A stretch of DNA of 64,000 bases from NCBI GenBank assembly GCA_008692225.1, contig VICG01000014.1, positions 620,001 through 684,000 of the forward strand, given 5' to 3'. Shown piece by piece: positions 23,534 through 51,500 of this stretch; the stretch's first letter is position 1; the number at the start of each line of letters is the position of its first letter. The stretch is from Monilinia fructicola (taxonomy: Eukaryota > Ascomycota > Leotiomycetes > Helotiales > Sclerotiniaceae). The notes under the pieces were generated by a model. It made no database searches. It worked only from the letters and a program-made list of their open reading frames with translations, and was not told the DNA's origin. A program made the position numbers and the translations under genes.

Positions 23534-24650
23534 TTACCTCTTCTTGCTAGCAGAGCCCCTCCTCAACAACGGAGAATTCTTCGTCAAATCATCAGCACCC
23601 TCGCTCAAACGCCGAAGATCGCCATTCAACTGAATATTACCAATATCGCCTTTATACATCCCATGCCATAGTCTTCCTGAAGCTACCTGAGGCGGGGTAT
23701 AATGACCGTAATAACCGCCCTCGATTGATCGATAGGGACCATTAGATAGTTGACGGAAGCTGCCGGGTGGTTCGTTCATTCTTCGGTTTGCGAAATGCTG
23801 GACCGGTGGGTAGAAGCGCAAACGGTCAATGGGTGCTTGACGGTTTCGAGGATTTCTTTCTTGTTTGATTTGTGGATTATCATATTTTCTTGGCCCGCGA
23901 GGACCATGAGGTATTGTAGGCCGGTAATCTGGATTATTGCTCTCACTCTTTACCTTCACTTCCCGGGATTCATGCCCTTGATCTTCTATAGAAGTCACAG
24001 TCGATAATCTGCTAGGTCCATGAGGATTTCCCCGATGATCGAACCTCTCATTTCGTTTAGTTGTTGTGGGTAGAGGTCGCGCGTTCGCATCTGGACCCCG
24101 CGTTGCCCACACTTTAGAATAGTCTGGGCCATTTCGAGGAAGCGGCCATTCAGAAGGGTGGAGTGTATGAGAATGAGTTTGGGGTATAATATTTGATAGG
24201 TGATGATGGCTAGTTGTTGTCCTAGCTCGTTTTGATCTGTGATATTGGGCCTCTTGTTCCAGTGTATGAATTTTGGGTCTGGTTGTACCAGCTTGTTGGA
24301 GAGTTTGGATGCTGGGAGCCAATGCAGCAGAATAATATCTATCATCTGGAGGGAATGACGGAAAGCGGGGATTTGATATGGGGAGATCGTTTGGTAACGT
24401 TGCATATGATGGCCACGCATGGGGGTTTGAAGCCCAGCCGGGGTTTAAGTCATCACTCGGGGCCCTTTTGCTAGGCACATGAGTTGAAGATGTAGAGGGG
24501 CCAGGCGCTGGAGCACATTGCGCTTTATCATCCCACTCAGATTTTTAACTCGGTTCTGCTCGGAAGACTCCGCGCATTGGACGGGAGTCGTGTGCGGGAT
24601 TTGGGGGGTACGGCGGTATCAGGACAGTGAGAAGGTCCTTGATGTTCCAT
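23534..24650 (-). CDS. Hypothetical disordered protein, probable one-base frameshift near N-terminus
   Basis: The long open frame has no in-frame ATG near its 5' end; its first candidate start is a GTG at 24478. Upstream, the ATG at 24650 opens MEHQGPSHCPDTAVPPKS and runs into a stop just after an A5 run (T5 at 24542-24546 on the plus strand). Removing one A joins both parts into a continuous frame of about 371 residues with no stop. The product is rich in Pro, Arg, Ser, His and Asn, with RSKRAR and KRNERFDHRGN basic patches, an Arg/Gly/Pro-rich centre and an ending SPLLRRGSASKKR. It has no membrane segment, signal peptide or recognised domain, so is probably a disordered nuclear or RNA/DNA-associated protein. 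A 5' intron was considered, but no donor/acceptor pair has the right phase. Confidence 0.65.
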
Positions 24651-27600
24651 TTCTAGGAAGAAGGATTATTTGTTTTGAATGAGAACGTTTTTCAAAGGTA
24701 TATTAATCTTGAGAGTCTAATAAAGGTCGAGATTGATCATTGCTATCTCTAGAAATGGGTAGATTGGAACTTTGGAAGTGGTAGCTCACCAGTGGCTGAG
24801 AGGAAGAGGCCTGTAAATTCTCGAGGCTGAAGTTAAGTCAATATAAGATGATATCGTGGATGAAAAGTGAATACCGCTACTTAAAATATTGACGACTTTA
24901 GGATTTCATACAAGTCTCATATTCATCAACAAAAGTTTTGTTGCACGTCTGAGTCTCAAAAAGGGTCCCTTTTTCAACATGCCACACCAGCCTCTCTACA
25001 CACTCGAAGCTTCCTAAAATATTTCAGGAGCAGGAGAAGAAGCAAGCCTTGTGCTCTAAGCAAAAATTAAATAAGGAGATCCAGTGGCCGGCTCATTATA
25101 TCTTTCGCAGTTGAAAATTGTTCGTTTTGATGCCGTTCTTGAGGAGAAATTTAGCGAAAATGCTGATGAAGGTATACAAGGTAGTAAGTAGTTATTCACT
25201 TATTGGTCTTTGCAACTTCTGAGAATCATGGCGAGGGAATATAAGAAATGAATTGCCTCAGGTCTCTTTTCGGATGTCTAATAGTTACCTAGGTATTTCA
25301 TAAAAGGAAGGCGCAGTCAGCTTGAACAGAATGGAAGACAGGTATTACTTCCGTGTTCAGACAGACACCAGCGCCAAGTTCCTGCGTCTTCACCCTCATA
25401 TTGGCACATTTTTTTCTGAATCGAGTAAACAGTTACAAGAACCGTTGGCACGAGTAATGCTCATATTATGGAAACTACGTTTCCCTCCACTTCCCTCCAT
25501 TTATGTTCTCGTTCACGTTCATCGTCTGAGGGGTCATAAACCATTAAGCCAAGTAGTTATATCTGAGCGTGTCAGGGCCTCTGCAATTCTTGTTATGATA
25601 ACAACCAAGTGCATAATAACTCATATACCCGTGGACGTCAACTTGAATTTCCTCGTCTCTGAATTCAAATCCGCTTCAGCTAATCATCACACATCTAACC
25701 GTGAACAGAATATCAAAAAGCTCCAGGGCTGTTCTGGGAGTTTGCCCGGAGCTTTGTTGTTCCACCCCTATCTGGCAGTCACAATCAAGTATTAGCGCAA
25801 ATCCAAAGTTTTGTTGCCCATCTGAGGTGATTTTGATACTCTTTTTGAGAATCCATCTCCAGATCAACCAGGACACAGGAAGCTGTCGCAAAGCCTTTAA
25901 ACAGACTCATAATTAGCACGGCTACAAGACTTTAAAGAGATTATGTCTACTTTGATTATCGTTGTTGAGTAATATCTTCCCAAAGTCAAGAAAGGCGGTT
26001 TTCAACCTCATCACCTTTCATCCCATCTAAACCTGATCTACCAACCTCAAGGTTATTGGCCCAACTACAGTTATGTTGCATATCTAACAGTGTTTTAAAG
26101 ATTCCTTTTTGAAATGTATTCAGGAACTCCTTAATGCATCCCGAATGTACTCAAATTCTAGAGACTGGTAAGAACTAATGCTTCATATTATCACAATATC
26201 TAATGTTAGTATGAAACCATTGCCTGGATATCCATGGATACTTCCTCAAAGCCTGAAAGATTGATTCTGTAAGTTGTTTCTAGAGTTTTGCTTCAATCTT
26301 ATTGGCGCCACTTGATTTTTGTTGCACGTCTAAGATGATTTTGAGACTCTTTTGAGACTCCCTGGTAGAAACTTTATAACTATTCTTCAACCCTACCTGA
26401 TGGATACTAGATGGTATGGAAAGGAAGATAAGGAGCAGAAGTACCATACTTTCAAACCAAATTCTCCATCCTTGGGGTTGCTGATATGCCATTTTTGTGT
26501 AAACTTAAACCTTGAAGTTTTGATAGATTTCCCATCCAAACCTTATTTGAACCCCAAAGTTTTGTTGCATGTCTGAGATTGATTTAGAGACATGTTTTTA
26601 TATCGTGCTTAACTATTTCTTAACTATTCCTTCAGTTATGAAAACAAATCCCAAAACTTGCAACCCGATTGAAAATAAGCAAGAGAACTAGAATATCAAA
26701 ACATCTTATCAATAACTCAAGTGGTCGACATGTTATTCCTGAGCAAAGTCGAAAGTTATGGTTTGGAAGTTCTGAGATCTCCAGGAGGTTAATATAATTG
26801 GCCCAATTAACGTTTTGTTGCATGTCTAATAATTTGATACAGTCCTTTGAGGCTCGTTTCTGGATTCTACATTACTAACTCTTCAATAGTCATATACATC
26901 TAAAAATTTCGTATTCATATAGAAAATAAGTAAAGGTATCATAATACCAAGTGAGATAGATGGTAACTCAATCTCCTCATATGCTAATCCTTTTCAAAGT
27001 CAAGAATGATAGCTTTTATGCTCTTTTGAGCTTCTTCAAGCTTCCAAGGTTAGACTTAGCTTCAATTTTGTTTTAACTTCAAGTTTTGTTGCACGTCTGG
27101 GGTTTTTGGAATACCCCATTTTCAAAACACCAGAAATATAATACTGTAGGATCTTTCTTATATTGATACATATATGGAAGTTAAACAGAAGCAGAAATAT
27201 CATTTACTCAAGGGAGCAAAAGAGAAACTTGTGCGCTTGGCACAGTATTCTATGTTGAAGTGGAAAGTCATGGTTTCTGAGGTCTGTCCCAATATCCTAT
27301 TGGCTCAACCATCTTTTTGTTGCACGTCTGAGTTCAAACTTGATCTAAACTTGAGGCCCATTTTTGAAAAGAGTATCAACAAAGCACTGAGGAGAGTTGA
27401 GACACCAAAATTAGATGGGTAGACAGAAAAGAAGCTGAGCGAAAATTCTACGCAGAGACTAAGACCACACACCAAGTGGTTGTGTTTCTACATCTTGTTG
27501 AAGTCAAGAGTTGAGGTTCTTGTATCTCTTAGGAAAGCACTTTCCTTCAACTTCTCATAAGTTTTGTTGCACGTCTGATATGGTTTTGAGGGACTACTTT

Positions 27601-30600
27601 TGGAAAGTCCAAAGTTAATTGAATAATGCTGTGGGAAAGTCGTGAAAATCTAATAGTATGTTCAAAAGAAGCAAATCTACACTCTTCAACAAGAACAATT
27701 AAAAAATTTCTAGCCCTTAAGTCTATACTTTGTTTTGAAGTGGAAAATCTTGGGTTTTCAGTCTACTTGGAGCTTCTTGAACCTTGCTGCTTACTAATTG
27801 ATTACTAATAATAACCTTTTCGCTCATTGACAGGACCGTGGACCTCACATTTGACCCATCTGCGACATATCTGATCAGCGACTCCCAAGCTTCTGATATT
27901 CGCACAGTGATTATAGCAGATCGTTATGACTTTAAGATAGAGTTTATCAAGATATAAAGCCAAAACTTATCTGCATCTGAGGTTCTATGCGTGAGACTGT
28001 GTATATCTGAATAACATTCCTATATATGTTGTTTAATCTTTTCATTTTTTACTTCTTTCACCTAATTAAAATCCAAGGATGACATAGTTTTGAAGACGAA
28101 AGAACTCTTACAAGAACTAGAGAGGATGAGATAAAGTTTGCGAGATGCTTTTAGGTGTCACACAAATCTTCCACTCCTTTGCAGCCCTCAAGTGTGCAGT
28201 CGAATATGGAGATCACAGAATCATAAAAGAAGCCTGACTAAAATGCAGCAATTGAGTCCTCATAGCTATTCATTTGAAATCCAATATTATCATTCGAACA
28301 ATCAATCGGATAGAAGTGGGAAACGATAAAATTGGGAGTCATCACCATAGGTCTAAATGGCTCTGTCAATGTATCTTAACAACCACTAAAATCTACAGCC
28401 CTCAAGTTTCTGAAAACTGATGAAGGTTTGGATACAATGGAAAAAGTGGCTACCCTCCAAAAGCAGCATGCAGACAGCGCATGAATGGCCGCAGATAGTT
28501 CGTTGGAGTCCACGGCTAATGATGATTCCAAGTCGTCTCAAATGAGAATTTTATATGTAGTTGTAAATGGGAGGAATGAACAGGAACAATGCTAATGAGA
28601 GATTATCCTAGATCAGACATCTATTTTTGCACATCCGACGCGCTTTACACACCTCCTTTCGAAATTAAAATCTTGCTTCCCTTTTAACACCCTCTAGAAT
28701 TATGAAAAAATGTTGAACAGATTTGAAAGAAGCTCAAGCGCAATATCTTATTGGAAGAAAGAATATTACTCCCTTACATCATTGACCCTACGTATCTTGT
28801 TAAAGTGAAAAGTCGCAGTTGAGAAAGATATCGAGCCAAGGTTGAAATGGAGATTCAAAGCGAGGCTGAAGATGAGGCTAGAACATCAAGTTTCGGTTCA
28901 GGAGATTGGTTGCAGGTCTGATGCTGATTTTACATGCTCTTTTTCAAACACAAACTAAACTCCATCGTGATACTTTCTGGCAATGAAACGTTTTGAAATA
29001 GATTCATAATAAGCAGATGCCTGATATTCCCAAGAGCTTATTCTGATACCTTGTGTGGTTTGTCTCCCTGCGTCTTGTTGAAGTCAAAAGCTGTGGTTTG
29101 GAGATGATCTTTACGGGAAGATTTTACTGGAAGATTTTACTGAAGCTACTCCCCATTGGGACTTTCTCTAAGTTTTGTTGCACGCCTCATACTGTTTTAG
29201 ATGCCCCATTGTGAAACTTACATTGCTCCTTTGCGATTGCATATGCGGTGATCAAAACTTAATAGGCATATGTGAAAGAAGCATAAGCTCAAGTATTGCT
29301 CAAATAATCATAGGAATCACAATGTGTTGATTCAGTATATCTTGTTGAAGTTAACAATGTGTATTTTTCCAAGTCTTCAAGTTGATGTGTGTTTGAGCTT
29401 GAAGCTAAGTGGGTTACAGCTTTTTGTTGCATATCTGACATTTCTAACCTTTTTCTTGATACCTTGTTTGAAATTCAGATTAGTTAATTCTCAGAGCATC
29501 TCTTAGATCATCGAAGTTGGCAAGTTCGTTGAAAATAAGCATAAGTTTCATGACTTGGTCAAAGAATAAAGAAATCCCATCATGTCGGCTTGCCATATAT
29601 GATTGAAGCAAGAAATGATGGTTTTATGAGTCTGGATGTTGAAATTAAACTTGGGTGCTAAGTCAAATATCAATCCCAATAGTTTTGTTGCATATCGCAA
29701 GGCTCATTCAAACACCTCATTTTGTATCTTATATATGTTACTCACAAAGCTCTTTGACATGTATTTGAGTTGATAGAAAGCTTTGAAAAAAGCATAAGTT
29801 TGACCTCTTCAGATAATAAAATAGAAATCTCACTGCGTTGATCTTAGAATTGGGTTTCAATTGAAAAACGGGTGGTTTTTCATGTCTTGAGGTTGAGATT
29901 AGGTTTGAAGCTAAACTCAATTTGTCAACTCAAACCTTTTGTTGCATGTCAAGATCTATTTTATACTACTTTCTAAAATCTATGTGACTCTTGAAGTTGG
30001 TATTTTCAAAGTTTCAAAGTGCCACGGGTGGGTTTAAAAACAGCAAAACTATATGATTATTGATTGAGCAGAATGACTATAAATGATGGTGAAGAGTAAA
30101 AACTTCAAGAAGTAAAAGTTTGTGGTTTCTATTACAAATTGTTCAAAATAAGCTGATAATGGTACAATATGGGAGTCTGTTGAACTGATATCCTTTGAAA
30201 CGGATAAACAATTGGAAGTCAGAGATAAAAAACTTGATGTACGAACGATCAGGTTAAAAGATGTGCGTCCATTTGTTTTATTCATTTTGCAATTTAGCAT
30301 CTAGATCTCGCATTTCTTAGTATTATCCAGTTGCGGTAAAAGAAGTATCCATGGATAATCTTTATGCTCTCGCGCAAAGGCAGTTGGCTAGCCAGAAGTA
30401 GACTAAAAACATCAGATTGTTTTGTTGCACGTCTGATATTGACTTTTTCTGGCTTTAATACCCATTTTTGAAACCTTTAAACCAGGTACTTAGACGCTGT
30501 CAAGCTTCTTGTAATTTGGTAAGCAGATTCAAAAGAAGATGGACTATCAGTATATCTATTTTTTTATGGAACCATTGGTTCATAGGTCTACTATATATAC

Positions 30601-31909
30601 TGAGAGTGTCAGTTGTCAGTTTTTATCCTCTGTCTTTGAGGTGGGTGAGTGGTGGTTGGGTGGCTAAAAGTAGACTAAGACGAAATCAAAGACTTTTGTT
30701 GCATGTCTGAAGATCAGATCAAAATAACTTGGTACCCTGTTTGGAAACCCCTGCCTCAATCACCTACAAGCGCTTATAGAATCCGAAAATTGGTAGACGT
30801 ACTGAAAAGAAGGCAAGCTATAAGGGAATCTACTTTTCAGATGGTAAGAATAAGTAGGTTGTGTGCTGTAGAAGTTCAAACTTGAAATCATGGTTCAATC
30901 CCTTCAATTTTGATTGTTACATAAGCAGAACTGCGATTTCATCTGGTTTTGTTGCATATCTGATGTAAATCTGATGTGAGTTTCAAGACATCTTTTTGGA
31001 AGCTCAATACCAAACACTTAATCTTGGCCAAATCAATAAAAAATTGCATAGATAGGTTCAAAATTAACCAATTCATACCCAAGTCAAAGAATGGAGAGTA
31101 TATTCCAAGATTGTGGTACTTTATTGTCTTCTAAACACAATAAAGGCATATTGCTGGTTTGAAGTCTGAGAAATCACTAGCTTCGTTTACAGCCAAAAGT
31201 TTTGTTGCATATCTAATGGTAGTTCTGATACTTTTGAAACCTCTTTTCTGAAGCTCAATATCTAATGCTTCGGTCAAGCCGAATTGGTCACAGGGTATTT
31301 AGGTTTACTTGAAAATAACTAATATATATCCATACCATGAGACTGTGAGTATATCTCAAATTGTTCAGTTGCCATTTTCTTGCAAAGACAAAATATATTT
31401 ATTCAGTTTGGTTCCAAGATCTAAAAGTTTACCTTCTAGCTCCTAACGAAAAAGTTTTGTTGCATGTCTGAACCTGAATTCAAAGCCTCTTTTTCAAATG
31501 ATCGTATCGTCCGCCTAGTGCTGATCATATGCCTTCAAAATTATATAGACAGATTGATAAAAAGCAGACGTACAATAATATCAAAACCAAAGGAGTAAAT
31601 TTGCAAAGGTTGATGTACTATTCATTCTCAAAGATAAATATTTGCGCTTTTTGAATTCCAAAGTCTCGAAAATTCAAGGCTCATCTACATGTTCTTTTCA
31701 CAACCCTCAACTTTTAATAACTTAGGGTTGCTCAAAGAGAATGAGATTTGTATAGGTGTATTTGAAATTCATAAATAAACAATTATATAACAATAGAAAT
31801 ATTATCAACGCAACGATTTATACATTTATTCCACCAAGATCCGAAGATATTAGTTTTAACCCCAAAGCTCTTCACTTTGCTTTGCTTTAGTTAACTCAGC
31901 CAAGCCTTG

Positions 31910-32100
31910 TCATTCCCGCTTCGCCGCATTCACTCCCCTTAAACCTCGCATCTCGCTTAGACTCACGGGCCACACCACCGCCGCCACCACCAAACACATC
32001 AGAACCAGATTTCCAAACACCCTCCACCTGGCAATAATAGCAACCACCAAAACGAAAGAAAAATTCACTTACCCCTCAAACTTCCAAAACCCACCTCGAA
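31910..32100 (-). pseudogene. Possible 3' end of a small membrane-protein gene inside the array gap
   Basis: A 45-nt GTAAGT..CCAG intron (32072-32028) joins RGGFWKFEG to a last exon (32027-31910) reading WRVFGNLVLMCLVVAAVVWP and then SLSEMRGLRGVNAAKRE and stop, which looks like one transmembrane helix plus a basic tail. The upstream frame meets a stop at about 32097, and no start exon was found. It may be the end of a small organellar membrane protein gene or a broken copy. In another frame the same exon reads as a Gly-rich peptide, so coding status is uncertain. Confidence 0.3.
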
Positions 32101-32189
32101 CTCAATGAAAGTCTGACAGATAATGCAAAATAAATACCCGAAGGCAGCTAGAAAATTTGCAAATTGTTGTCTGCTCTAATATAACACTT

Positions 32190-32258
32190 GAATCTGATGA
32201 CTCAATGGTTAGCGCACTGATCAGACGAGCTGAATACCAAGCCAGCAGTCTCGAATTT
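32190..32258 (+). other. tRNA-like fragment with A-box match
   Basis: TGACTCAATGGTTAGCGC matches the D-arm region of fungal tRNAs (10 of 11 positions of the Pol III A box). A B-box-like GTCTCGAATT occurs about 50 bp downstream, just before a T-rich run. No acceptor stem or proper anticodon arm can be folded, so it is at best a degenerate tRNA or tRNA-derived element. It lies in the gap of the 250-bp array. Confidence 0.3.
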
Positions 32259-35200
32259 TTTTATTTTTTTTTTTCGAGGGAGTTTCGTTTGGGGACATAT
32301 GGTTTGGGAGGGATTGAGCATTTGGGCTAGATGGTTCTTTTACTGGATGTACATCAGGTTTTCACTTGGCTCCTCACGCAACTATATGAAATTTGTTATC
32401 TTAAAATGGGCTTGAAGATACATGGTACCTGATTAGATGGATAATTTGACAACAAACAATAATTGATGAGACCTCGGGACCCTCAAATTCTTCACAACCA
32501 GCACAGCACCTTCCCAAACCCCACGATTTTCGCCGCTATATATCTATGGACGCGCTGCTGGCCTCAGGCTCTCGTTCTGCAACCAAGGACTTTTGTTGCA
32601 CATCTGATGTCTCTTTAGACATTATCATTTTCCAAGCCCAGTTTCACTCTTCCAGAGACATGCAAATCGGTTCACACTTTGTGGACAGATTCCAAAATAG
32701 CCAAAGAACTAAGCTACGACGAAAACGAAAGGATAAATCAAAGCCTGGAATGTTGGTCCTTGGGTAAACACAAAAATTGCTGAGATTTAGATGGTTTTCT
32801 GGAGATGCCTACACCCACCCTTTCATTCATTCACTTTATTGGTGGCGCTAGCTAACTAGATAGTGAATAATCTTTGAACAAGGTCTTGTTGTATGTCTAC
32901 AGAGCTATTTTTATATTTACTTTTGCAAGACCAATATACATGACTTGATAAGAATAGGTGAAGCAATATCAAAATTTATGGGCAGGTAGATCATCAGCCA
33001 GTGTACAGTGTTGCGAAGAAAAAACTTAGGAACGGTATGTCGTTGGGTGAAGGCACTTCATCAAAGTGGAAGATGTTGGATTTCAGAGGCTCTCATGGCG
33101 TTTCTACTAGCTTCACCTCCGTCACTTCCCAAGCTTTGTTGCACGTCTGATGCCCTTTCCCATACCTCTTTGCCAAATCTCCATTTCGAATATCCCTACT
33201 GCTCAAATTCATCTCAAACTCTGCAGCCAGAGAGAAAAATACCCAATGCATGGTTCTGCGAAAAAAGAACCCGAAGAATCCCAAGCCGTTGGACACCGAT
33301 CCTTCTTCAAACTTGATTTTGCTGGTTCTGAGAAGATATATAGAGAGATGGAGTTATCCAAGAGTAGCGCTTCTTGGGTATTGCTGCACGTCTAATGCAT
33401 CTTTCTAATGCATTTTTTTTCAATTAATATATTTCTTTCTACCCTTGCTCAAACAGTCTCTTATTTGTTCCACGTGTAAAAAAATACCCAATATACAATA
33501 ACGGCAAAACAAGAAACAAAACTCTTCAATCATTAAAGACTAGGGCTTGCCCAAAGTGGGAAAAGATAGATTGGATGGGATGCTCTTCCCACTAGCGCCT
33601 TTTTTGATAATTTTGTTGCACGTCTAAGATCCTCTGGGCAATTATAAACACCCTCTTTTCAGATACCTTTTTCTTCTCTCTCCATGAATCCGATGGGTTG
33701 AGATTCCGTGGATACATTGAGAAACAGCCGATACACATGATACCAGAAATTGAGAATCAGAAAGCATATGTGTGGTTGCCGATGCTTATTCTACGTGGAA
33801 ATTGTAGCATTCTGGAGGAGTGATGAAAAGAATTCTTCCACTGATGTTTTTCAAATGTTTTGTTGCACGTCTAAAGCTCGTTTTCCATGCTCCCTTTTCA
33901 ATTTGCTACTCTGCTTCTTGCATCCTATTATAATTTCTAGGATCTTGCAATCAGGCTTAAAAATAGAAAATGTATCTTTTTATCAAAAGCCTTGAGAGAC
34001 AAACCATACGATAGTGCAGTAATACCACTTTGAAGAGGAAATGTGATGAGATTAGATGAAAGATTTTCTGGAGAGTATGTGTTCCCGCTACAGACCTGAT
34101 TGGTCAACCAAAGCTTTTGTTGCATGTCTGGGGCTGTTTTCTAATACCCCTTTCTGAATCTTGTTTATTGCCTTCAGATTCTGGTATGAGTATCCCAAAA
34201 CTTGTAGACAGGTTTAAAAATAGCTAATGTACAGGAGTATCAAATATTCAAAAGTATAGAGTGTTGTGGTAGCTGGTAATAAGTCTTTGAAGTGAAAGAT
34301 GCTGAGTTTTGGGCAATTTTATAGGCCTATTTAAGTTATGTATATGACTTCCTACTAGCTAGACACCTACTTGGGCATCATCCAAATGGCCAAAAAGGTC
34401 CTTGTATTGTTCCAGATATTCCTGAACTATACTGAAACTCATAATTCGATCGAAAGTAACTGGTCAAGAAGAGAATCTAGAAAGAAAAATCCAAAAGTAA
34501 ACAGTAGGGCAGTCGTCTGTTTGTAGACACACAATTGACTGATTTTGAAGTGAAGTACTAGCACAGAATCTAATCTTCTCATTCATTGGCTTCCCAGATG
34601 TTTTGTTGCACATCTGATAGCTTTTTATATGCTTCTTTTTCAAAGCTTTCTGTGTACTTCCAACCAACCTCAAATCGTACATAAATTTCTAGATCAATTC
34701 AAAAATAGTGAAAGTATGCTAATACCAATTCTTAGAGCTATCGATTGCAAAACCGGTGGTTAATATCTCTTTAAAGATAGAAATGGTGGATTTTTGAAAT
34801 ATTCATTCGTGGCCCTAGCTTTTTCTCAAAAGTTTGGTTGCATATCTGAAGGTGGTTTCAACACTCATTTTTGGAAACTTGATGTTGTCTTTCTATGAAC
34901 TCTGAGGTGTATAAAAAGTTGATAGAAAGATTTAAAAATAGGCAATGTATGTTGGTATCAAAACTTGGAGTCGTTGACTATAACGTTGATGGTTGGCATT
35001 ACATCAAAGATAAAATTGATGGTTTTCAAGATACCATTTCAATATCGTAAGCTTACATTGGTCTTTTTAGACTTTTGTTGCATATCTGCAACCTTGGAAG
35101 TCTTTTACTTGCTTCAAAGGGGAACCTCAACATCAAATTTTCAAAGAGATATAAAGCTCGCAAGGATATATAGACAAACCAAGAAATAGCAAATGTACAA

Positions 35201-35820
35201 TATAATTAAACGATAAAACAGATAGATGATATTATTCATTTCAAGTATCTTGTCAAAAGTCAAAACTACTGATTTTCTCATACGTCAACCCAAGATGTAA
35301 GCTTTCTATTGGCCCCCCAAGAGTGTTGTTGCATATCTGACACTCAATTGAAGACTGCTTTTTCAATCACCATCTTCAACCACTCAACCATTCCTTAATC
35401 TCACACGAATTTGTAGATCTATTCAAAAATGGCAAATAAAGGACCTCATCTGAAATTCAATCCATCAAAATGCCATGTATGGATGCTATCTCATTACAAA
35501 GTCAAAAAAGACGTCTCTAGCGCTCTTCAAATATGTAGCTCGCTAAAATCCTCTCTGAAATCCTTTCTCAAAACTATTTGTTGCATACCGCAGTCCTAAA
35601 AAAGACACATTTTTGTAGGCTATATACCATTTCCATATTCGAGGAAGAACATGCAATATCGAAGACTCGAATTGAAAAGAAGTTAGGTAGAGGTATTTTG
35701 AAAAAATAATAGCGAAACATTGAAAGGTAGATTTTAAGTACTGGTTTGAAGTGATAATTGACGGTTTTGGAGGCAAGAAGGCGACTTGAGCGAGAACTTC
35801 ATAGCCGACTGGCGACATTT

Positions 35821-36143: not shown

Positions 36144-37296
36144 CTACTCACTCTCTTTAACAATTCTTTCCAACGTTTTCACATATTCGCCTACATCCTG
36201 TGCCCCCGTCAAATTAATGTCTCTTCTTCTCCCCTCAACATTAACAACTGGTACACTGTCGACCCCATTGCTCTCTGACTCTCTGATCATATTTTTCACA
36301 TCCATCAATCCTTCATACTCATCCCCAATAACTTTTCTCGCTTCTCCTTCATCCACCCCTGCTTCCTTACAAGCGGCAAGTAAAGTCTCCTCACTACTGG
36401 GATGCTTCTCCTCTTGAAAATACATTCGGTATAATGCCATGACTATCTTGTCCGCTGTTTCCGGTCCGCCACCCCTCACATCTTCTTGTTGGAAGTGTTG
36501 AACAATTCGATGCGCATCGATTGTATTTGCAACGGTACCCCCGAACTTATAATCTATACCAGCAGATTGTCCATATGCTGTCATCACTTTGATATACATC
36601 TCCATCTTCTCTTCAGAATCTCCGTAGCGAGATTTCCGATACCAGGCATGTTTATCTTCGCCTTGTTTACTGGCTCCAGGATATAGTTGATACGGCGAGA
36701 ACTTAACTGTAAAGTTAACATTCGAAGCTTCATCTGTTAAACGAACGATTCGAAGTGCTGTAGAGGTTGTTAGTAAATGGGGAATCCATATTTGTGTGTG
36801 CGTGTGTGGAAGCAAGTGAATAGTGCGGGGGCTAGGAGAAAGACGAGATGACGTTGATATTTAGAACTATCACGTGGTTGAAATCATTTCTCCGATACTC
36901 TTTCCACATGTTGGATATTAGTCCGATGGACATATCAAATGGAAGAAGAGCCCAATTCTTACCTTCATCCAATCTACTCAACGTTACTCTCGTCAGTAAT
37001 GTAATCCATCCGTAGTTTCCAACATTTTCAATAATATTCGAATGAGATATTCAAGACCCTTACCTCTTCTTGGCAAGATAAGTCCTAATTATAACCGAAC
37101 ACGATCAGTGAGTGATACACTTGATCTCGTATTCCATGAATTATTGCTTAAATAATCACCTGCATGATGCAACATCCTTGATCATGCACCACAAATAAGG
37201 AAGGAAAAGATAGAAATGGAAGAAATAAGAAATGCCGAAGACGACTCACCATGGACAAATAATATCAAAGGTAAATGTGATTGTAGAATCGTACAT
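36144..37296 (-). CDS. FrnE/DsbA-like thioredoxin-fold oxidoreductase (2-hydroxychromene-2-carboxylate isomerase/DSBA family)
   Basis: Four exons: 37296-37250 (47 nt), 37084-37064 (21 nt), 36973-36963 (11 nt), 36757-36144 (614 nt), all GT..AG with consistent phase, giving 230 residues. The N-terminal strand TITFTFDIICPWTYLAKKR carries the CPWT active-site motif of FrnE-like proteins, which has one catalytic Cys rather than CXXC. A helical insert follows (YQLYPGAS, WYRKSRYGDSEEKM, TAYG), then HRIVQHFQQE, the SSEETLL/EAGVDEGEAR helices, and SVPVVNVEGRRRDINLTGAQ, whose cis-Pro (SVP) and strand close the fold; it ends in the family-typical VKTLERIVKES. Likely cytosolic glutathione- or thiol-dependent oxidoreductase. 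Introns of 165, 90 and 205 nt surround the two tiny exons. Promoter sequence lies to about 37.6 kb. Confidence 0.92.
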
Positions 37297-37761
37297 GATA
37301 TTGGTGAGGGGAATACGAGGTCTTGAAATCTTTTTTTTTTCTCTTTTTCTTTTCAAGTGATTTGGCCGAGTGTGTTCGTTGTTGGACCCGGGGTTGTTTT
37401 GTGTGAGAATGAGCAACGTGGAAGATATTGATTTGAGGTTTTGAGGTTTGAGGTATGAGGTGTGGGGTGTGAGATAGAAGGTAGAAGGTAGAAGATAGAA
37501 GATAGAAGAGAGAAGAGAGAAGGTAGAAATATGGATGTGTTTGCAATATACGGTACCTAGATGAGGATAACCTGAATGTAGGTTACGGCATATGAGAAGG
37601 AGGGTGTAGAGAACTTCTCAAGTAGTTGTTAGTTCCGGTAGTAAAGTTGTATATAACTTACTTGAGCATATAATATATGTGATGATTATAACTGATTTTG
37701 ATGATATCAATGAAGGGAAAATGCAAATATAATGTCAAAATAGTAATTCGCTCCATCTCTA
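37297..37761. other. Upstream region of the FrnE-like gene, no further gene
   Basis: G/A-rich repeats of the type AGATAGAAG and GAGGTTTGAGGT at 37435-37525 are probably 5' UTR or promoter. The sequence becomes AT-rich toward the transposon boundary. Confidence 0.5.
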
Positions 37762-39772
37762 CTTGGCGTTGTTTTGGGTCAATACCGGGCTATTTAAGCG
37801 AGAATTTCAAATTATAATTTCTTCAACTATAAATACGTTATCATATAAATTTATATTATAATATATTTTACTTTTAAGAAAATTATATTATTCAAATTCT
37901 GAAAAATGGCTTTATATATTAGGTTTATTTATAAAAGTGTAACTATTCCCAAATTATTAATATAAGCTAATTAACCTTAAATAAGATTCCTAAATAACTT
38001 CCCCTTTTTCTATTAATTTTTTTAATTCAATAATATCTTTTATTTAATTAAAAAAAGCCTTAAATAATACTAATTAAGTTAGCGTTGTTATAGTAGATTC
38101 AAAGGGTTTTTTTATTGATTAAATAAAAAATATAAAGTTTTAAAACGTTAAGATTGAAAGGGCCAGAATGATTAATTTTATTAAGAACTTTCAATAAACC
38201 AAAAAAAATAATTTATACTATAAAGGAACTTTTAGATTAATAGAAATGATAAATTAAGAGAAGGACTAATTATAAAAATTATTATTTTTATTATATTCTA
38301 TAATTAATTTGTATATTTCTATAATATATAAAATAGTAGTATTAATAAAATTTTAAGGGATTTTCAATTATTCCTTTTTTTACGCTTTTATTATCTCTAT
38401 ATTATTTTAAGAGTATATACTTTAAAATCTTCTTTTTCAAATCTAAATATATATATAATGCTATATTTGCTTAATAAGGTTGAAATTCGAAAATTGAGAT
38501 AATTATAAAAATTAAATTATTTTATTGAATTCAAAATAAAATTTTATATAGCTATTACTATATACCACTATATTATTTATTACAAATTGAAAAGTAAAAT
38601 GCTTAAATTAAATCTTTTTATACTAAAGGATTAAATAAGATTTTAAATATCCAAAAATGAAATAATATTAGTTTATTTTCCTTTTTAACTAATTATTTTT
38701 TTTAAACTTTTTATTTATAATATATTTCTTTTTATTAGCTAACAAACTACACTTTCTAATATTTCTTTTTTAATATTTTCTCTCTTTCTATACTTTAACA
38801 TTTTCAAATATTAATTTATTCTATATATTCTTTTATTAATTAAAATCATTTATATGCTTATTTATCTAGTTTTTCTTTTACTTTGTTTTAATCGAAAAAA
38901 TTATATAAAAGCCAAAACAGTAAATATAGCATATTCTATTAAAAAATTATTTATAGCTATAGTTTTTATTCAAATTTATAAATTATATAACGTTTTTATA
39001 ATTATATTCATTAAAAATTAACTATACCTTTTTCTTTTTGAATTTGTAAAATTATATAAAAACAATATTAATAAATATAATTGAACTAGGATTTATTTTT
39101 AATATAGATTTAAAAGCTTTTATTTATATAATTTATATTTTCCGTATAACTATAATTAAATTAAATTTATTCAATAACAAAGAATAAATAAAATAAACTT
39201 TATATATAATAATATAAAATAAAGATTTCTTTAATTTTTTTTTATATATTGTATTCCAATTCGATATATATTAAGAAACATTTAATTCTTTAAACTCTTA
39301 AAATATTATAACCATTTTAATAACCTTTTTTTGTTAATAAAAAGAAAAATAAATTATACCTTTTTTACTATTCTTATTTTGAATATTTAATATATCCGCT
39401 AAAAAAGGTTAATTGTACTCATTACACATACCAACTTGATTAGCTTTTTTATACGTTTCTTACCGTATTCTTTTTATAATACATATAAAAAAACAATATT
39501 GCTAATTAGCTATTTTTTGCGTAAAAAAGGTTTTCCTATCGATATTAATTATAGTTTACCATACGCCTATAAGAACTTTGATTTTCAGGGTTTTTTGTAA
39601 AAAGCATAATTGCCTTTTAGTTCTACGATTTTTTTAAGGTATTTTTTGCAATATAATATTAATTCATTGATTTATTATTAATTTTTGAATATCTAATATA
39701 TAAAAACGCGTTTTTGTATTAATACGTTTTCGACTAATTTTTAGCCTAGCATTGATCCAAAACAACGCCAAG
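37762..39772. mobile_element. Degraded TA-flanked DNA transposon, about 2.0 kb (Tc1/mariner-type)
   Basis: Left end begins CTTGGCGTTGTTTTGGGTC (37762 on); the right end ends with its near-perfect inverted copy (to 39772). TA lies directly outside both ends (37760-37761 and 39773-39774), the target duplication of Tc1/mariner/Fot1-type elements. Length 2011 bp fits an autonomous Fot1-like element, but the interior is extremely AT-rich and holds no ORF, as expected after RIP. The differences between the two ends include transitions (GGGTCAATACC versus GGATCAATGCT). Transposase identity cannot be checked by eye. Confidence 0.8.
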
Positions 39773-40005
39773 TACTCTGTACAACAACTCAGTTGATTAG
39801 TCAGTCATCCAGCTAACCAACTAACCTTACAGAGTAAGGTTAACCAGGTATGTAGGTCGGATGGACGTCCATTTGAACTCATATGGACCTGTGGGGCGTC
39901 TCTTAAAAAAAAAGGTCAACTGCAAAACGTTACACAAGTCCACCCGACGTTTAACCGAATGTATAATTTTATGAAAATTCATAAAAATTCATAAAATTTT
40001 GTATA

Positions 40006-40090
40006 AATTATAAATATTCTTAATTAGATTCTAAACGTTTTCGAAAACGTTTTCAAAACGTTTAGAATCTAATTAAGAATATTTATAATT
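40006..40090. repeat. Perfect 36-bp inverted repeat (hairpin) within the element
   Basis: Arm 40006-40041 (AATTATAAATATTC...AAACGTTTT) is exactly complementary to arm 40055-40090. The 13-nt loop itself contains the perfect palindrome GAAAACGTTTTC. Diverged relatives lie at about 40370-40440 and 40790-40875. Confidence 0.85.
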
Positions 40091-40252
40091 TTTTTTAATA
40101 ATAATAATAATATATTTATATTTAATATTTAAAAATTAATTATTTAATATTAAAATATTAATTAAATAATAAATTAATAATAATAAATTTAAATATATAT
40201 TAATTAATATAGTTTTATTAAAAGATAAATTATATAATTATAATATTTTAAG

Positions 40253-40293
<41 letters not shown>

Positions 40294-40677
40294 ATCAAAT
40301 CTAATTTAAAATAAAATTGATATAAATTTATATAAGATAATTATATTATTTTTTTAATAAAAGCTTTAAATTAGATTCTAAACGTTTTGAAAACGTTTCG
40401 AAAACATTTAGAAAACGTTTAGAATTCAATTAAGAATTTTTAGAATTTTTTTTAATAATAATAATAATAATAATAATATATTTATATTTAATATTGAAAT
40501 ATTAATTAAATAATAAATTAATAATAATAAATTAATAATAATAATAATAATAAATTAATAATAATAAATTAATAATAATAAATTAATAATAATAAATTAA
40601 TAATAATAAATTTAAATATATATATAATTAATATAGTTTTATTAAAAAGATAAATTATATAATTATAATATTTTAAG

Positions 40678-40714
<37 letters not shown>

Positions 40715-40870
40715 ATTCAATCTAATTTAAAATAAAATTAATATAAATTTATATAAGATAATTATATTATTTTTTTAATAAAAGCTTTAAATTAAATCCT
40801 AAACGTTTTTAAAATGTTTTCTAAACGTTTTCGAAACGTTTTCGAAACGTTTAGAATCTAATTTCAAAAA
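40060..40870 (+). repeat. Two tandem copies of a ~350-420-bp AT-rich unit
   Basis: Both copies run, in order: AAACGTTTAGAAT, (AAT)n, TTTATATTTAATATT, (AAT)n, TATAGTTTTATTAAAAG, TTTTAAGTATTATATATA(TA)n, TAATTTAAAATAAAATT, and AAAGCTTTAAATTA before the next AAACGTTT palindrome. Copy 2 has a longer (AAT)n section. Confidence 0.75.
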
Positions 40871-41045
40871 TTTATAATTTATTAATAATCAATTTTTGCA
40901 TAATTTTTTATGATTTTTTATGAATTTTATGCAAATTTATGACTTTTGCCCCACTAGTCCACCCGACGTTTTTCCGAGTCCACGGGAGCTCAGATGGACG
41001 TCCATCCGACCTGTTGACTCGGTTAACCTGACCAACCAACCGTTA

Positions 41046-42199
41046 GAAGGTTCCACGGGCCAATTGAACACATTGGCCAACTGAACAGTCTAACCTAATT
41101 GGGTCACCGCTTTTCGATCGTAATCCTTTATTTTCATTATTATATTTAATATTAAATTTAAATATAATAATTTTATTTATTAAATAATTTTATATTAATC
41201 TTTATATACTAATTAATAAATTTTATTAATTCTTTTAAGTATATTATATAAATTGTATTAATAATCTTAATTTAAAATAAAGAATTCTTTTTTTAAAAAA
41301 AGTATATATAAATATATATACTTATTTAATTTTTTAATAATAATAAAAACTCTTTTAAGAATTTGTTATATATTTATTTATAATAAATAAATTCTATAGG
41401 ATTATATTAAGATCTTTTAATTAAAAATAAAAATAAAAAATATTTCTTTTATATATATATATAAAATTTAAAAGCTTTAAATTATATAAAATTCTTAATA
41501 AATATAAAATCTTATAAATAATCTTTTTTTAATATTATATATTTAATAATATAATAATTTTAATAATAAAATTAATTATTATTTATATTATATATTAAAA
41601 GAATTATAGAAATAATTTTAAAAACTATTTTAAAAACTATATTATTAATTACATTTTTAAAATTATAAATATCGTTTATCTTATAATATTTTATTAATAA
41701 TATACTAAAAAATAATTATAATATCTTATTAATAATACATTATAAAATGTTTATAATTTTTTAAGAATCTATTTTTTAAATTTATTTTTTAAATTAAATT
41801 ATTTATTATATAATTAATAATTTTAGTTTTAAAGAATAAAACGTTTTACATATAATAATTTTATAAACTTTATAAATAATAGGAATATAAAAAAATTTAA
41901 TATTCTATTTTCTTAATAGTTTAATAAATATAAATTAATTAATAAAATATATTTACAAAAAGTTTACTATTATAAATTTTATAAAAAAAATTATAAATTA
42001 TTTTTTAATAAGTTTTAATAATTATATTAATAAAAAGAAAGTTTATTATATAATTATTATTATTATCAAAGTATATATTATAATAATAAAGTATTAAGAG
42101 TTAATTATACCTTTAAGAATAAGGTATTGCCAGCTTATCGACTAAAAGGGTTTAGCGCGTTCAGTTGGCCAGTGTGTTCAGTTGGCCCGTGGAACCTTC
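41046..42199. mobile_element. TA-flanked element of 1154 bp with 41-bp terminal inverted repeats
   Basis: Left repeat 41046-41086 starts GAAGGTTCCACGGGCCAA; its inverse at 42159-42199 matches 39 of 41 positions, both differences being C/T. TA lies immediately outside each end (41044-41045, 42200-42201). The repeat itself contains the motif GGCCAAyTGAAC twice. The inside is very AT-rich with no ORF, which fits a non-autonomous mariner-type element or a shortened relic. Confidence 0.85.
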
Positions 42200-46998: not shown

Positions 46999-48573
46999 TT
47001 ATTTCTTCTCCGCCGCATCCCCTTCCCCATCTTCATGCTCCCACCTCCTCTTCACCATCCTAACCCATCTCCTTCTCCTCCATTCCCCTCTCCTCCCCGC
47101 TCCATCCACATCACTTGCTTCCTCCCAGCTGACCGGTAATCCTTTCTTCCCCCGCAAACTCCCCATATTACTCCCCGTATCCACCACCCCCACAGAATCC
47201 TCTTCATGCCCTTCATATCTAATATCATAAACCCATCTTTCCCCCTCCGTCTCCACCTCCACCCCCGTGATAATCCTCTCTTCCACCCACTCTCGACTCC
47301 ACAAATCCAACGCCCATTTCTTCTCGCTCCATTCCCAACCCCGGGGACTCTTGACGTCTTCGAAGAAGCGACAGCCAATCGGCCTCCCAGTTTCCATCCG
47401 CATGCTACTCATGGGATCATATGGTGAACTGCTGAATAACCAATGCTCCCATTCGCCTGCGCGGGAAAGTTTTTGCAGTTCGAAGATTTCCACCTCGCGG
47501 GTCTCGGGGGAAGAATCTAGGATGATATCTTGGGCAATGAAGGCTTGAAGACTAGCTTGGAGAGGTTTTGCGCGTGGTTTCACGACCGTGGTGTGGGTTG
47601 TTAGCATTTGACGTTGGATGGTTGGGTGACCGAGAGAGGTGATGGTCCAGCCTATGGTGAGGAATATGAAGCGCCATGGCATAAGATGGGACGCGATGAA
47701 CATAAAGGCGGCAGTCACGACGAGGAAAAGAAAGACAGTGGAGGAGAGGGGTTCATTGGAGAAGTTGGTAGACGGGGAAATTAGGGTGATTATCTGATCA
47801 TGAAGTTGGGAGAAGTCTTCCATGCAGTTTTGAAGATCTCGCATGTTGCGAAAGAAGTCTTTGGAGAGTTCTTTGACAGGTTTGACGGTTGGAGCTGGGG
47901 CTATTGGTGGACCGGTCGTGGAATATGTGAAAGAATCTGCGGTTATGGTTGTAGGAGGTGCGGGGTGACGAGCAATAAAAGAGGGTATGAGGATTGCGAG
48001 GAGAAGAACCGCCAGCGGGAGAACAGTGAGAAGGTATGGATCTAAGCAGACAAATGTATACACTGCGAGGAACGAGAGAGTATGCGACCATTGCTTCCAG
48101 CTAAGTAAACGTATCACTTTGGCTTGAAAGACGAAAACCACTCCAATTCTTGCATTAAACCTTCGAAAGTTGTTCGACATTGTTGTAATATTGAAAGCAG
48201 GCCGTTCGACAAAGTTTATGGGCTCAACATCCTTGCGGTTTTCGCTGAGATCTTCAATTGGTATAACTTGTTGTAACAATCTAGAATCGTCAGTACAGCC
48301 GGGGACAGCAAACGCAGCAACAATGGCCATAACATACTTCTCCAGTAATCTATCTTGTACAGTTGCTGACGCTTCCGAAGCCTTACTGTGTGCCTTTCGA
48401 ATATTCTCCTTCAACTCCGATTTGTGTTTCCTTAATCGCTCTCGCGTACCCTTTTTATGAGGCGATTCATTTGTATCTTCAACCTCGTCATCGCTGCCGC
48501 GTGTAGTATTCAATCGGATCACCGGGATAGGGTCATCACGATTCGCAAACGCATCTGCCGTGAATTCATCCAT
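46999..48573 (-). CDS. Peroxisomal/ER membrane protein with dysferlin-like domain (Pex23/Pex24 family)
   Basis: Integral membrane peroxin of the Pex23/24 (yeast Pex28-Pex32) family, involved in peroxisome number and ER contact. Intronless, 524 residues from the ATG at 48573 (MDEFTADAF); an in-frame TTG 30 codons upstream is not a credible start. Residues 40-75 are Lys/Glu-rich helix; membrane segments lie at about 163-200 (a hairpin-like pair, SFLAVYTFVCLDPYLLTVLP then LAVLLLAILIP) and 279-313. The C-terminal half has the dysferlin pattern: VEIFELQKL with EWEHWLFSSSPYDP (DysFN-like), GWEWSEKKWALD, RWVYDIRYEG, and a final WRRRRWVRMVKRR (DysFC-like). Which paralogue it is cannot be decided by eye. 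Confidence 0.9.
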   Translation of the reverse strand: MDEFTADAFANRDDPIPVIRLNTTRGSDDEVEDTNESPHKKGTRERLRKHKSELKENIRKAHSKASEASATVQDRLLEKYVMAIVAAFAVPGCTDDSRLLQQVIPIEDLSENRKDVEPINFVERPAFNITTMSNNFRRFNARIGVVFVFQAKVIRLLSWKQWSHTLSFLAVYTFVCLDPYLLTVLPLAVLLLAILIPSFIARHPAPPTTITADSFTYSTTGPPIAPAPTVKPVKELSKDFFRNMRDLQNCMEDFSQLHDQIITLISPSTNFSNEPLSSTVFLFLVVTAAFMFIASHLMPWRFIFLTIGWTITSLGHPTIQRQMLTTHTTVVKPRAKPLQASLQAFIAQDIILDSSPETREVEIFELQKLSRAGEWEHWLFSSSPYDPMSSMRMETGRPIGCRFFEDVKSPRGWEWSEKKWALDLWSREWVEERIITGVEVETEGERWVYDIRYEGHEEDSVGVVDTGSNMGSLRGKKGLPVSWEEASDVDGAGRRGEWRRRRWVRMVKRRWEHEDGEGDAAEKK

Positions 48574-51500
48574 TTCCTGAGGATTTGGAGAGTTAAGTTT
48601 CTTCGGTAGGATTGATGGTTCGTGTCTGGAGCGGAGTTTCAATGATTCCCGAGGTCTTTTCAAGATTAATGAGGGAAGCTTATGATGAGAAGAAGTACAA
48701 AGTCGTTGCGTTTCGCTTTTTCACTGATTGTAGGGTTCCTGCCTATGTGAGTGAATAACATGCTTTGAATTGATTAATCCTGCAAATTCAATATTGACAG
48801 TTGAATCTTTAGTTGAGATGTATCCAGTACTGTCGTTTGTTGGATACAAATATCAAACATCTTGGTGTTTGAAGTTGACGCGTCTAGCGATCGATGAAGC
48901 GATCAATGAACCTAAAAATCTTTGAAAAAGGCATGACGTTGTTTTGCCGCCAGTTGGGCTGAATTTTGATTAGATTGGATTGGGTTGGGTTGGATGGGAT
49001 CACTGGTGGATGGGATTGGATTGGATGGGATGGGATGGGATGCGATTGTCTGTGATTGGGATTAGAAAAAATAAGTTTCCGTCCTCCCGCTATACATCAT
49101 ATAATACATGATTAAAAGCACAATTAAGTTTCTTCGATGTTCATTTCAAATGCAGGTGTTTATATCATACCCGTGGACAATGGACATCCATATTACCGAT
49201 TCTTCCGTCATCGGGAATTCAATTGAAGTCCACGGGTAGATATACTTATACTCCTCGTATTCTTTTCTTGTATTAAAGTCAAAATATTGAGAGAGGGAGA
49301 GAGAGAGAGGGGGGAAGAGAGATGATCTTCTTAAAGTTCAAAAAAGAGAGACTGACTGACTTATGATCCAAATGAAGGATGAATGACCTCGGGAAACGAA
49401 TGAATGAATGGAGTTCAATGAATGAATGAATATACCTACCTAGGTACCTCCAGGGCTAGGTCAATCCCGCTGATACTGTTGTTGTCGTGTAGCCCCCTTT
49501 TCAGAATATAATATAATTCTTATCATTAGACACTGAATCCATCTCTCTCCCCCCTCTCTCTACCTTGATGACCAAGCTACCTACTGTAGGTGTGTATATG
49601 AAGATCAGTTTGTCACTTGTGAATAACATCATCCATGTCTTGAGATCTCAGCCAGGTGTCGTTGAAACATGGTTCAATCTTTAATCTTTCTTATCATGTC
49701 GGGTGGATTGATTCTTCCCAATGCATTTTTTGCACATGTCAAGGGTTCATAACATACAAGGTGAGGTGAGTGAGCACTTACTAATAAGAAGGAAGCACCA
49801 CTGGTGCACTTGGAATTGATGAGTTGATTAGTGACAAAATCATGTGGTTGGTTACTGATCAGTGGTCAGTGATCACTGATCACTGATCACTCGATTGAAG
49901 ACAACTAACTATCTGAAAGGGTTAAATGTCAATAAATAGGGGTGTGACATCTGCCATCTTGTTTGCATTGTTGTACATCCATTCTAGAGATGGTTTGGTG
50001 GATCTGTACCTCACAGGATTATGATCTTTAGCTACATGCGAGATACAGTAGTGAAGATTTAGTTATGGTTGCCATGGTGTACAAAAAATGAAGCCGAGTA
50101 GGGCAGAAACCTTGGCGGGAGAAATGGTCTCCATAAGAATGCATATTGGGAAGAGAGAAGAGGAGAAGAAAGAGGAGAGGAGATCTAGAGGAGAGGAGAC
50201 GGGAGGGGAAGAGGCGAGAGGAGAGAGGCGAGAGGCGAGAGGCGAGGGGAGAGAGGTGAGAGGCGAGGGATGAGAGGCGAGAGGAGACTGGAGGAGGTCA
50301 TTCAGCATAATCTTCATAAGATTGGTTAGATTGGTTAGATTGTATGTATGTATTGAATAGGTAGATAAGATGGTGTTTATTGTTATTTACCTATACTCGT
50401 AATTGGAATAACCTTGGAAACATAGGAGGATCTTTATATGGAGGATATATGGATATATGTGTATGTGTGTATATGTGTATATGTGATAGATGGTATATAA
50501 TGACATACTCGAGTATATTAATATATATATGACTTCACATATCCCAATAACTAAAACCGCCCTTACATTCATTCATTCATTCATTCATTCATACATTCAT
50601 CTTTTCGATTAATAATAAACAATTAAACATTTGTAGATACTCGAGTATATACATATATACATATATACATACTAAGTATACAATTCAAATATTCATCAAT
50701 GAACCATGAACTCATTCAATCCCCCTTCCCCCCTCTCTGCCCCCGTCCCGTCAAACCGTCAATATTTGATGCTCGGCATATGCTTGAGTTGATACCGTAT
50801 TGTCATTGTCCCCATAAACAATTAATCCGCGAGTATCCCGGGGATTCATCCCAGTTGATAAAATATATAAATCACCAAATAATCCTTTCCTCTGCTCGTA
50901 ATGTCGAAATGAAGCATTGAAATTTGAAAGCATTGACAACAATAATAAACTTTAGTATGACCAGGTAAATGGGTACGGTTTGGTTGTCCCAGTTCAACCA
51001 CTTCTTTGTTGACTTTTATTTGAGGGTCTTGAGAGGAGACGATGAGGAGACGATGAGGAGAAGTGTTGTTGTTCGAAGCATAAGTCATCTTTGACCCATC
51101 ATTTATTTATCATTGTCACCATCATTTTTTTATTCTGACCGCCGTTATTATTTATACTCGAGTATTTTATTTTATATTATGTACGGGAGTACTAGGGATG
51201 TCCACGGGTACCTAGGTAGTTAAGGTTACTTATCACTAGTACTAATAGGGATACTAGTGGTATATTTTATCACGATAGTTTGAATTTATAAGTCATTTGA
51301 TTGGTTCATTTTGAAACGATTTAACTTGATTCCTTTACCTTCACATTGAATATAATACTATAGATATTTAAATAATCGATAGCCTTAAATATTTTGATTT
51401 AGATCTTATATAATATAATATAATATAATTAAATTAAATTATTATTTTTACATTTATTCATCTATGGATTGATTTATCTCTATATTACCTCTTATTAGTT

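Follow-up and report, generated by a model that had tools for sequence, protein, structure and literature searches.

Why should a tandem repeat that has largely decayed hold on to one short part of its unit? This question is raised by an array of roughly 250-bp units in a 64-kb stretch of the Monilinia fructicola genome (C14:620001-684000, hereafter the window), in which a 17-bp core, TTTTGTTGCAYRTCTGA, recurs from unit to unit. Conserved satellite boxes are an old puzzle, and their binder is rarely known. A sequence-only reading of this locus had proposed selection on the core, and had named a protein-binding array, an RNA source and a chromosome-structure element as possible reasons. We scanned the entire genome (44,028,109 bases, 20 contigs) and found the core at 108 places, often with CCAAT boxes set upstream in helical phase. 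Judged by this context, the core looks like an undescribed protein-docking element. One box stands here in many unlike arrays and at single sites of a small fungal genome, phasing suggests a partner, and the retention of a single short box in a repeat becomes directly testable. All counts and tests refer to the one genome of M. fructicola.

The core recurs throughout the genome

With up to one mismatch the 17-mer occurs 205 times in the whole genome (107 forward, 98 reverse), versus 2 + 0 for the reversed pattern. The strict 13-mer GTTGCAYRTCTRA gives 203 matches genome-wide versus 4 for reversed patterns. These strict cores merge to 108 places, 72 with a single copy and 36 with 2 to 20 copies (19 pairs and 17 places with three or more), and cores are spread over 16 of the 20 contigs. 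They are also clustered: 95 neighbouring pairs lie within 3 kb of each other, versus 2.8 expected from a uniform spread. Both cores point the same way in 87 of these pairs; the other eight, within some clusters, are opposed.

Spacing is regular inside some places and differs between them (18, 62, 64, about 173, about 250 and 260-290 bp), which shows that no particular spacing is selected as such. The shortest of these belongs to an 18-bp minisatellite at C10:239214-239320, the unit of which contains the core itself. When 40 other loci were scanned with a profile built from 30 window units, the core set to N, a single weak match appeared (E 0.008), followed by six with E values of 4-10. At the loci examined, the common property of the arrays appears to be the core, with flanks largely unrelated between loci; many small arrays share it, and that of the window is the largest seen. 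The proposed selection on the core is supported because the core recurs at 108 places with largely unrelated flanks. The array cannot be pictured as a lone satellite of which only 17 bp survived, since the core is genome-wide and other blocks of the unit survive as well. It is hardly credible that these 17 bp outlasted an ordinary decayed satellite or transposon debris by chance. The window array is indeed an old tandem array, but the same core stands in otherwise unlike arrays and at numerous single sites, well in excess of the control with the reversed pattern, and the genome count is already strongly contrary.

Two longer queries were uninformative. The core followed by a strict downstream TTTTGAA, a pattern that is too strict, gave 4 matches genome-wide (2 in the window array), and a 21-mer from a composite consensus gave none in the window and 8 elsewhere versus 2 for its control. 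A miniature inverted-repeat transposable element (MITE) or a DNA transposon with terminal inverted repeats was rejected on the 87 same-strand pairs among 95. Two convergent pairs on C4, about 115-125 bp apart (L023:2618-2735 and L049:191-314), have a MITE-like outline; no target-site duplication is obvious by eye at L023.

CCAAT boxes are phased upstream of the core

The surroundings of the core were analysed in 106 fetched segments (254 cores), among which the window array counts as one. They do not correspond one-to-one to the 108 places, and some adjoin within 1-4 kb (L106/L131, L054/L127). L029 shares about 1 kb with L024 and was dropped from the polarity, hairpin/CGG, downstream-family, k-mer, phasing and folding analyses, and L042 has no core at score >=12. 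Core score cut-offs were 12 for locus listings, 13 for the information profile and family listing, 14 for polarity groups, 15 for k-mer, CCAAT and folding tests, and 17 for pyrimidine-purine (YR) counts, local similarity and hairpin/CGG tests. For the information profile, YR counts, local similarity and family listing, copies that had the same flanks entered as one.

An unguided positional k-mer scan of these segments was led by CAAAAG directly before the core (9 segments vs 0.5 expected) and CCAATC near -24 (11 segments vs 1.1 expected). CCAAT lies at -50 to -15 in 32 of the 106 segments, versus 5 to 20 in eight other 35-bp intervals. Its upstream start positions pile up at -21 to -26, -31 to -35, -43 to -46 and -51/-52, with few others (-58, -55, -48, -39, -16). 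The best period is 10.25 bp, and CCAAT ranks first among 140 5-mers tested alike. Against a null given the same freedom in period choice, the phasing has P = 0.00025 (43 positions; 42 of 52 cores kept after removal of similar flanks) and P = 0.0012 with one position per segment (n = 36). Downstream of the core we found no phasing of CCAAT (P 0.51 and 1.0) or of ATTGG (P 0.96); farther upstream, at -100 to -61, that of CCAAT is marginal (P 0.03, n = 14). A second word, the E-box CACGTG, is concentrated at -30 to -13 (9 segments vs 6 in all other bins together). Either CCAAT or CACGTG stands at -50 to -13 in 20 of 64 single-core and 19 of 42 multi-core segments.

Two sites can be in helical phase only on double-stranded DNA, and such phasing usually signals proteins that contact each other on the same face. 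CCAAT boxes in phase with the core point to a DNA-level module of two contacting proteins, and suggest, as the simplest reading, a composite element for the CCAAT-binding complex and a putative core-binding protein. HAP2/NF-YA is found in the genome. Among the three reasons first offered for the array, protein binding is best supported, through this phasing. Very improbable, in contrast, is a motif to which proteins bind in RNA, with long noncoding transcripts carrying many copies and acting as sponge or scaffold: the mostly single orientation of the arrays would suit it, but helical phasing is a DNA property, and both orientations occur in some clusters (8 of 95 pairs).

Conservation tends to extend downstream

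In 40 equally weighted loci no information is seen beyond about -1 to +18; the extended core reads CAAAAG-TTTTGTTGCAYRTCTGA-AA. At core positions 11-12 all four YR dinucleotides are common (TA 60, TG 38, CG 25 and CA 21 of 149), a mix that one would expect of a flexible DNA step. Within 26 same-strand groups of at least three cores, compared by ungapped pairwise identity, the mean identity is 0.35 at -10 to 0, which is near background, versus 0.45, 0.38 and 0.34 at +20, +30 and +40. Identity is higher on the downstream side in 19 of the 26 groups (Wilcoxon P 0.003). Local similarity between loci at score >=44 links 41 pairs downstream and 1 upstream, all 41 from one family (L012, L013, L015, L020) and L009/L014. 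Hairpins downstream of the core are weak (mean stem 3.55 vs 3.17 upstream, P 0.01, and vs 3.32 in shuffled sequence, P 0.05), and partner sites of the CGG zinc-cluster type are not enriched there.

Further downstream families were seen by eye, one ATAGCCT...AGGCTAT-like (L021, L025, L026, L036, L049, L094, L115) and one CAAGGC...CCTGACAAG-like (L035, L043, L097, L106, L118, L131). The word TGACGT(CA/AAG), with CCAAT, lies farther downstream at L012:3975, L013:2801, L020:2649 and 2968, L083 and L084, also by eye; the family that bears these words may be dense in candidate regulatory sites. In the L012/L013/L015/L020 family, a segment enclosed by the short palindrome CGCAAAG...CTTTGCG has one orientation in 6 of the 11 copies and the opposite one in 5.

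This polarity raises the idea that the core is the promoter of tiny autonomous transcripts, with CCAAT or an E-box upstream: a short noncoding or small RNA would begin with the locus-specific stretch immediately downstream, an array would be a battery of mini-genes, and the core would act as the upstream motif of Caenorhabditis elegans piRNA genes does. We regard it as rather unlikely. It would account for the downstream excess in 19 of 26 groups, for the strong similarity between loci downstream (although confined to the two sets of loci named above), for the one favoured orientation upstream (CCAAT in 32 segments vs ATTGG in 14-15), for the mostly same-strand arrays and for the downstream families that recur by eye. 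However, alignments of the window units, 30 core-centred and 28 whole-unit (the latter leaving out 2 of the 30 core units), yield 0 consensus RNA pairs, the 64-kb window has no Rfam match, and the folding energy in the 106 segments hardly differs downstream from upstream (mean z per segment -0.28 vs -0.18). One downstream family also carries TGACGT and CCAAT words, seemingly further DNA sites. A structured form of the noncoding RNA that was first envisaged from the sequence finds no footing in these data, and the window contains no tRNA genes. A coding repeat was rejected as well: the longest ATG/GTG/TTG frame in the window array has 157 aa, and coding is unlikely because the TTGTTG of the core hardly changes, although leucine codons would allow variation there.

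A probable protein-docking element

We think that the core is probably a double-stranded DNA site of one nuclear protein, in part composite with CCAAT, and shaped by tandem duplication, decay and selection. The extended core would be recognised by one sequence-specific protein. At about a third of places a CCAAT box, or in a few cases a CACGTG E-box, would lie some two to five turns of the helix upstream and make it a composite; where the box is CCAAT, its binding complex would contact the protein on the core along one face of the helix. Such elements would occupy about a hundred places that look noncoding in a rough frame survey. Tandem duplication would have produced the clusters (36 of 108 places with at least two copies, mostly on one strand), after which most of the unit would decay while selection keeps the core and some adjoining, mostly downstream, sequence. 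Clusters may act as multi-site docking platforms, either cis-regulatory or architectural. A more far-reaching version is less likely and offered tentatively: a lineage-specific binder of these fungi with genome-wide, CCAAT-registered docking platforms, its 17-bp site being used singly or in tandem arrays that evolved independently, and the platforms would either fire tiny transcripts or organise chromosomes.

Several observations weigh against the docking proposal. The composite is not universal, as CCAAT stands at -50 to -15 in only 32 of 106 segments, and in the window array 1 of 30 units has CCAAT at -50 to -15, with an inverted ATTGG at -20 to -10, near -16, in 9 of 30. Upstream phasing is marginal for ATTGG (P 0.06) and absent for CACGTG (P 1.0). 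The range of CCAAT positions was picked after inspection of the histogram, and some segments are close neighbours or relatives, which makes their independence imperfect. There is no downstream excess in 7 of the 26 groups, and several cores lie inside frames of at least 130 aa, possible exons.

The array in the window

How does the window array itself fit this description? Matches to the core with up to three mismatches number 30 in the window, from 24936 to 35340 and 30/30 on the + strand (Table 1), as against a mean of 0.97 and a maximum of 4 in shuffled windows. The single orientation reported earlier is borne out, and so is the array, although the reported 32 copies become 30 at this threshold plus a degenerate core in 32726-33013. 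A spacing of 231-293 bp or exact doubles had also been stated: 23 of 29 core-to-core steps do measure 231-283 bp, but 483 and 486 bp are near doubles only, and the remaining four (543, 873, 1060 and 1136 bp) are no clean multiples. The core-masked profile regains all 30 units (E 4e-5 to 2e-23, as expected of the units that built it), three stretches that pass the inclusion threshold although their core is missing or degenerate, and two weaker ones. The detected units belong to one family and tile most of 25.7-35.4 kb head-to-tail, as in a classical satellite. Because units and core-less or degraded stretches together tile most of the region, we read the window array as a single tandem array, old and about 33-35 units long.

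Unlike a classical satellite in which all positions drift alike, this array is conserved unevenly. In a MAFFT alignment the mean information per column is 1.38 bits in the core and 0.42 bits outside. Outside the core, 31 of 241 columns reach at least 0.8 bits. The unit has AAAGT (at about -75), GGTTTT and ATTGGC (-16 to -11) upstream, then CAAAAG with the 17-bp core, TTT, AC..C-TTTTT.GAAA (about +30 to +44) and AAAA..AGCAAA (about +101 to +112). MAFFT inflates flank conservation somewhat, as the random-offset control indicates: columns of at least 70% number 56 in the real alignment and 40 without the core, versus 13-21 at random offsets. No part of the unit is kept as strongly as the core, yet other parts are kept too. 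It was too strong to call the units barely alignable, given what the masked profile regains, or to say that one 17-bp window is kept, given the 31 informative columns outside it.

Table 1. Features of the core array, in window coordinates
Feature	Coordinates	Strand	Evidence
Tandem array, ~250-bp units	24889..35812	+	core matches, profile, column information
Core, 0 mismatches	24936..24952	+	pattern match
Core, 1 mismatch	25809..25825	+	pattern match
Core, 2 mismatches	26071..26087	+	pattern match
Core, 1 mismatch	26317..26333	+	pattern match
Core, 0 mismatches	26560..26576	+	pattern match
Core, 1 mismatch	26813..26829	+	pattern match
Core, 1 mismatch	27084..27100	+	pattern match
Core, 0 mismatches	27315..27331	+	pattern match
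Core, 0 mismatches	27562..27578	+	pattern match
Core, 3 mismatches	28622..28638	+	pattern match
Core, 3 mismatches	28905..28921	+	pattern match
Core, 2 mismatches	29173..29189	+	pattern match
Core, 0 mismatches	29422..29438	+	pattern match
Core, 2 mismatches	29683..29699	+	pattern match
Core, 3 mismatches	29937..29953	+	pattern match
Core, 0 mismatches	30420..30436	+	pattern match
Core, 0 mismatches	30694..30710	+	pattern match
Core, 0 mismatches	30947..30963	+	pattern match
Core, 1 mismatch	31200..31216	+	pattern match
Core, 0 mismatches	31455..31471	+	pattern match
Decayed unit without core	31572..31762	+	core-masked profile, E 6e-4
Core, 0 mismatches	32591..32607	+	pattern match
Unit with degenerate core	32726..33013	+	core-masked profile, E 3e-6
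Core, 1 mismatch	33134..33150	+	pattern match
Core, 3 mismatches	33379..33395	+	pattern match
Core, 1 mismatch	33611..33627	+	pattern match
Core, 1 mismatch	33858..33874	+	pattern match
Core, 1 mismatch	34115..34131	+	pattern match
Core, 0 mismatches	34601..34617	+	pattern match
Core, 1 mismatch	34833..34849	+	pattern match
Core, 1 mismatch	35073..35089	+	pattern match
Core, 1 mismatch	35324..35340	+	pattern match
Partial last unit without core	35696..35772	+	core-masked profile, E 1e-4

Comparison with known systems

The CENP-B box has the essential bases TTCG----A--CGGG. Compared with this box, the core agrees at 11 of 17 positions in register (shuffle P 0.0035, or 0.008 with offsets allowed). 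Identity with the CENP-B box was rejected, as just 5 of 9 essential bases match; by analogy, the core may work like one. The closest precedent that we found is Box 1 of Meloidogyne, a 17-bp box retained by satellites that have otherwise diverged, 10-12/17 identical to the CENP-B box and proposed to drive the formation of tandem arrays (PMC3694981). Here too a 17-bp box with partial CENP-B likeness is kept in highly divergent repeats and recurs in mutually unlike tandem arrays, with some loci sharing downstream sequence. In contrast to the Meloidogyne boxes, which lie in satellite DNA, the core also occupies many single sites and small unlike arrays and has phased CCAAT upstream.

This precedent bears on the idea that the core merely promotes recombination or duplication, as a breakage site or through transposase-like binding, and has no host function. 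Arrays of very unlike unit length, down to the minisatellite at C10:239.2 kb, and the CENP-B match speak for it, as does Box 1. Still, 72 of the 108 places are single, neither phased CCAAT boxes nor an E-box beside the core would be expected, and the core is still kept in the old, decayed window array; we consider this explanation improbable.

The core contains GTTGC, an RFX half-site. A full RFX X-box, which is a palindrome, was rejected as the partner site, because by inspection only the GTTGC half is present in the core consensus. A CCAAT site for NF-Y in fixed relation to a partner site is documented for the W/SXY promoter module of major histocompatibility complex (MHC) class II genes (PMC7866136). 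Both systems relate CCAAT to a second site, and one downstream family described above has a CRE-like word. The present element differs in its several allowed helical spacings, its tandem arrays, the lack of a full RFX palindrome and the lack of known target genes.

At the chromosome pairing centres of C. elegans a single short motif is clustered within repeats that vary in other respects, much as seen here; the difference is that the core is found on 16 of 20 contigs and not in one region per chromosome. The upstream (Ruby) motif of C. elegans piRNA genes is a short constant motif followed by variable, locus-specific sequence and clustered in the genome (PMC3597512). The core shares this arrangement, but its sequence is unlike CTGTTTCA, and we see tandem duplicates instead of independent 21-mers.

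Among proteins that might bind the core, the genome encodes at least one match to an RFX-type domain and at least one to HTH_Tnp_Tc5 (CENP-B-type), the latter at C9:569938-570126 (L063) in an unbroken 287-aa frame. All 10 of the DDE_1 transposase matches listed carry multiple stops. The RFX-type and CENP-B-type proteins are leads, not findings.

The repeat table of the Monilinia vaccinii-corymbosi genome gives 0 satellites (PMC8022979). No fungal or Sclerotiniaceae repeat of this form is described among the matches listed in open-licence literature, and a text search of open-licence papers, with most subscription papers outside its scope, gave no match to the core letters.

Genomic surroundings

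The gene context of the cores is mixed in a rough survey of open frames. Ten long frames beside single and clustered loci were ordinary and mixed, eight of them above the cut-off (Sec6, amino-acid permease, transporter, Sof1/WD40, GMC oxidoreductase, NAA35, S9 peptidase and FGGY kinase) and two below. GC-poor islands were rejected as a general companion of clusters: just 5 of 40 loci (L009, L021, L024, L028, L038) have a 500-bp stretch of <15% GC near the core.

The window has such surroundings of its own. A frame without Pfam family (23534-24478) precedes the array, which is followed by a DSBA-like gene (36144-36815). An AT-rich island at 37600-42100, to which the core array shows no sign of relation, has GC down to about 11%, palindromes of the AAACGTTT type and about 1.9 copies of a 421-bp unit (40095-40889); it looks like repeats decayed by repeat-induced point mutation (RIP). 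Farther along, a PEX29-like protein, 96% identical to an M. fructicola protein over 95% of its length, is encoded in the window at 46999-48663.

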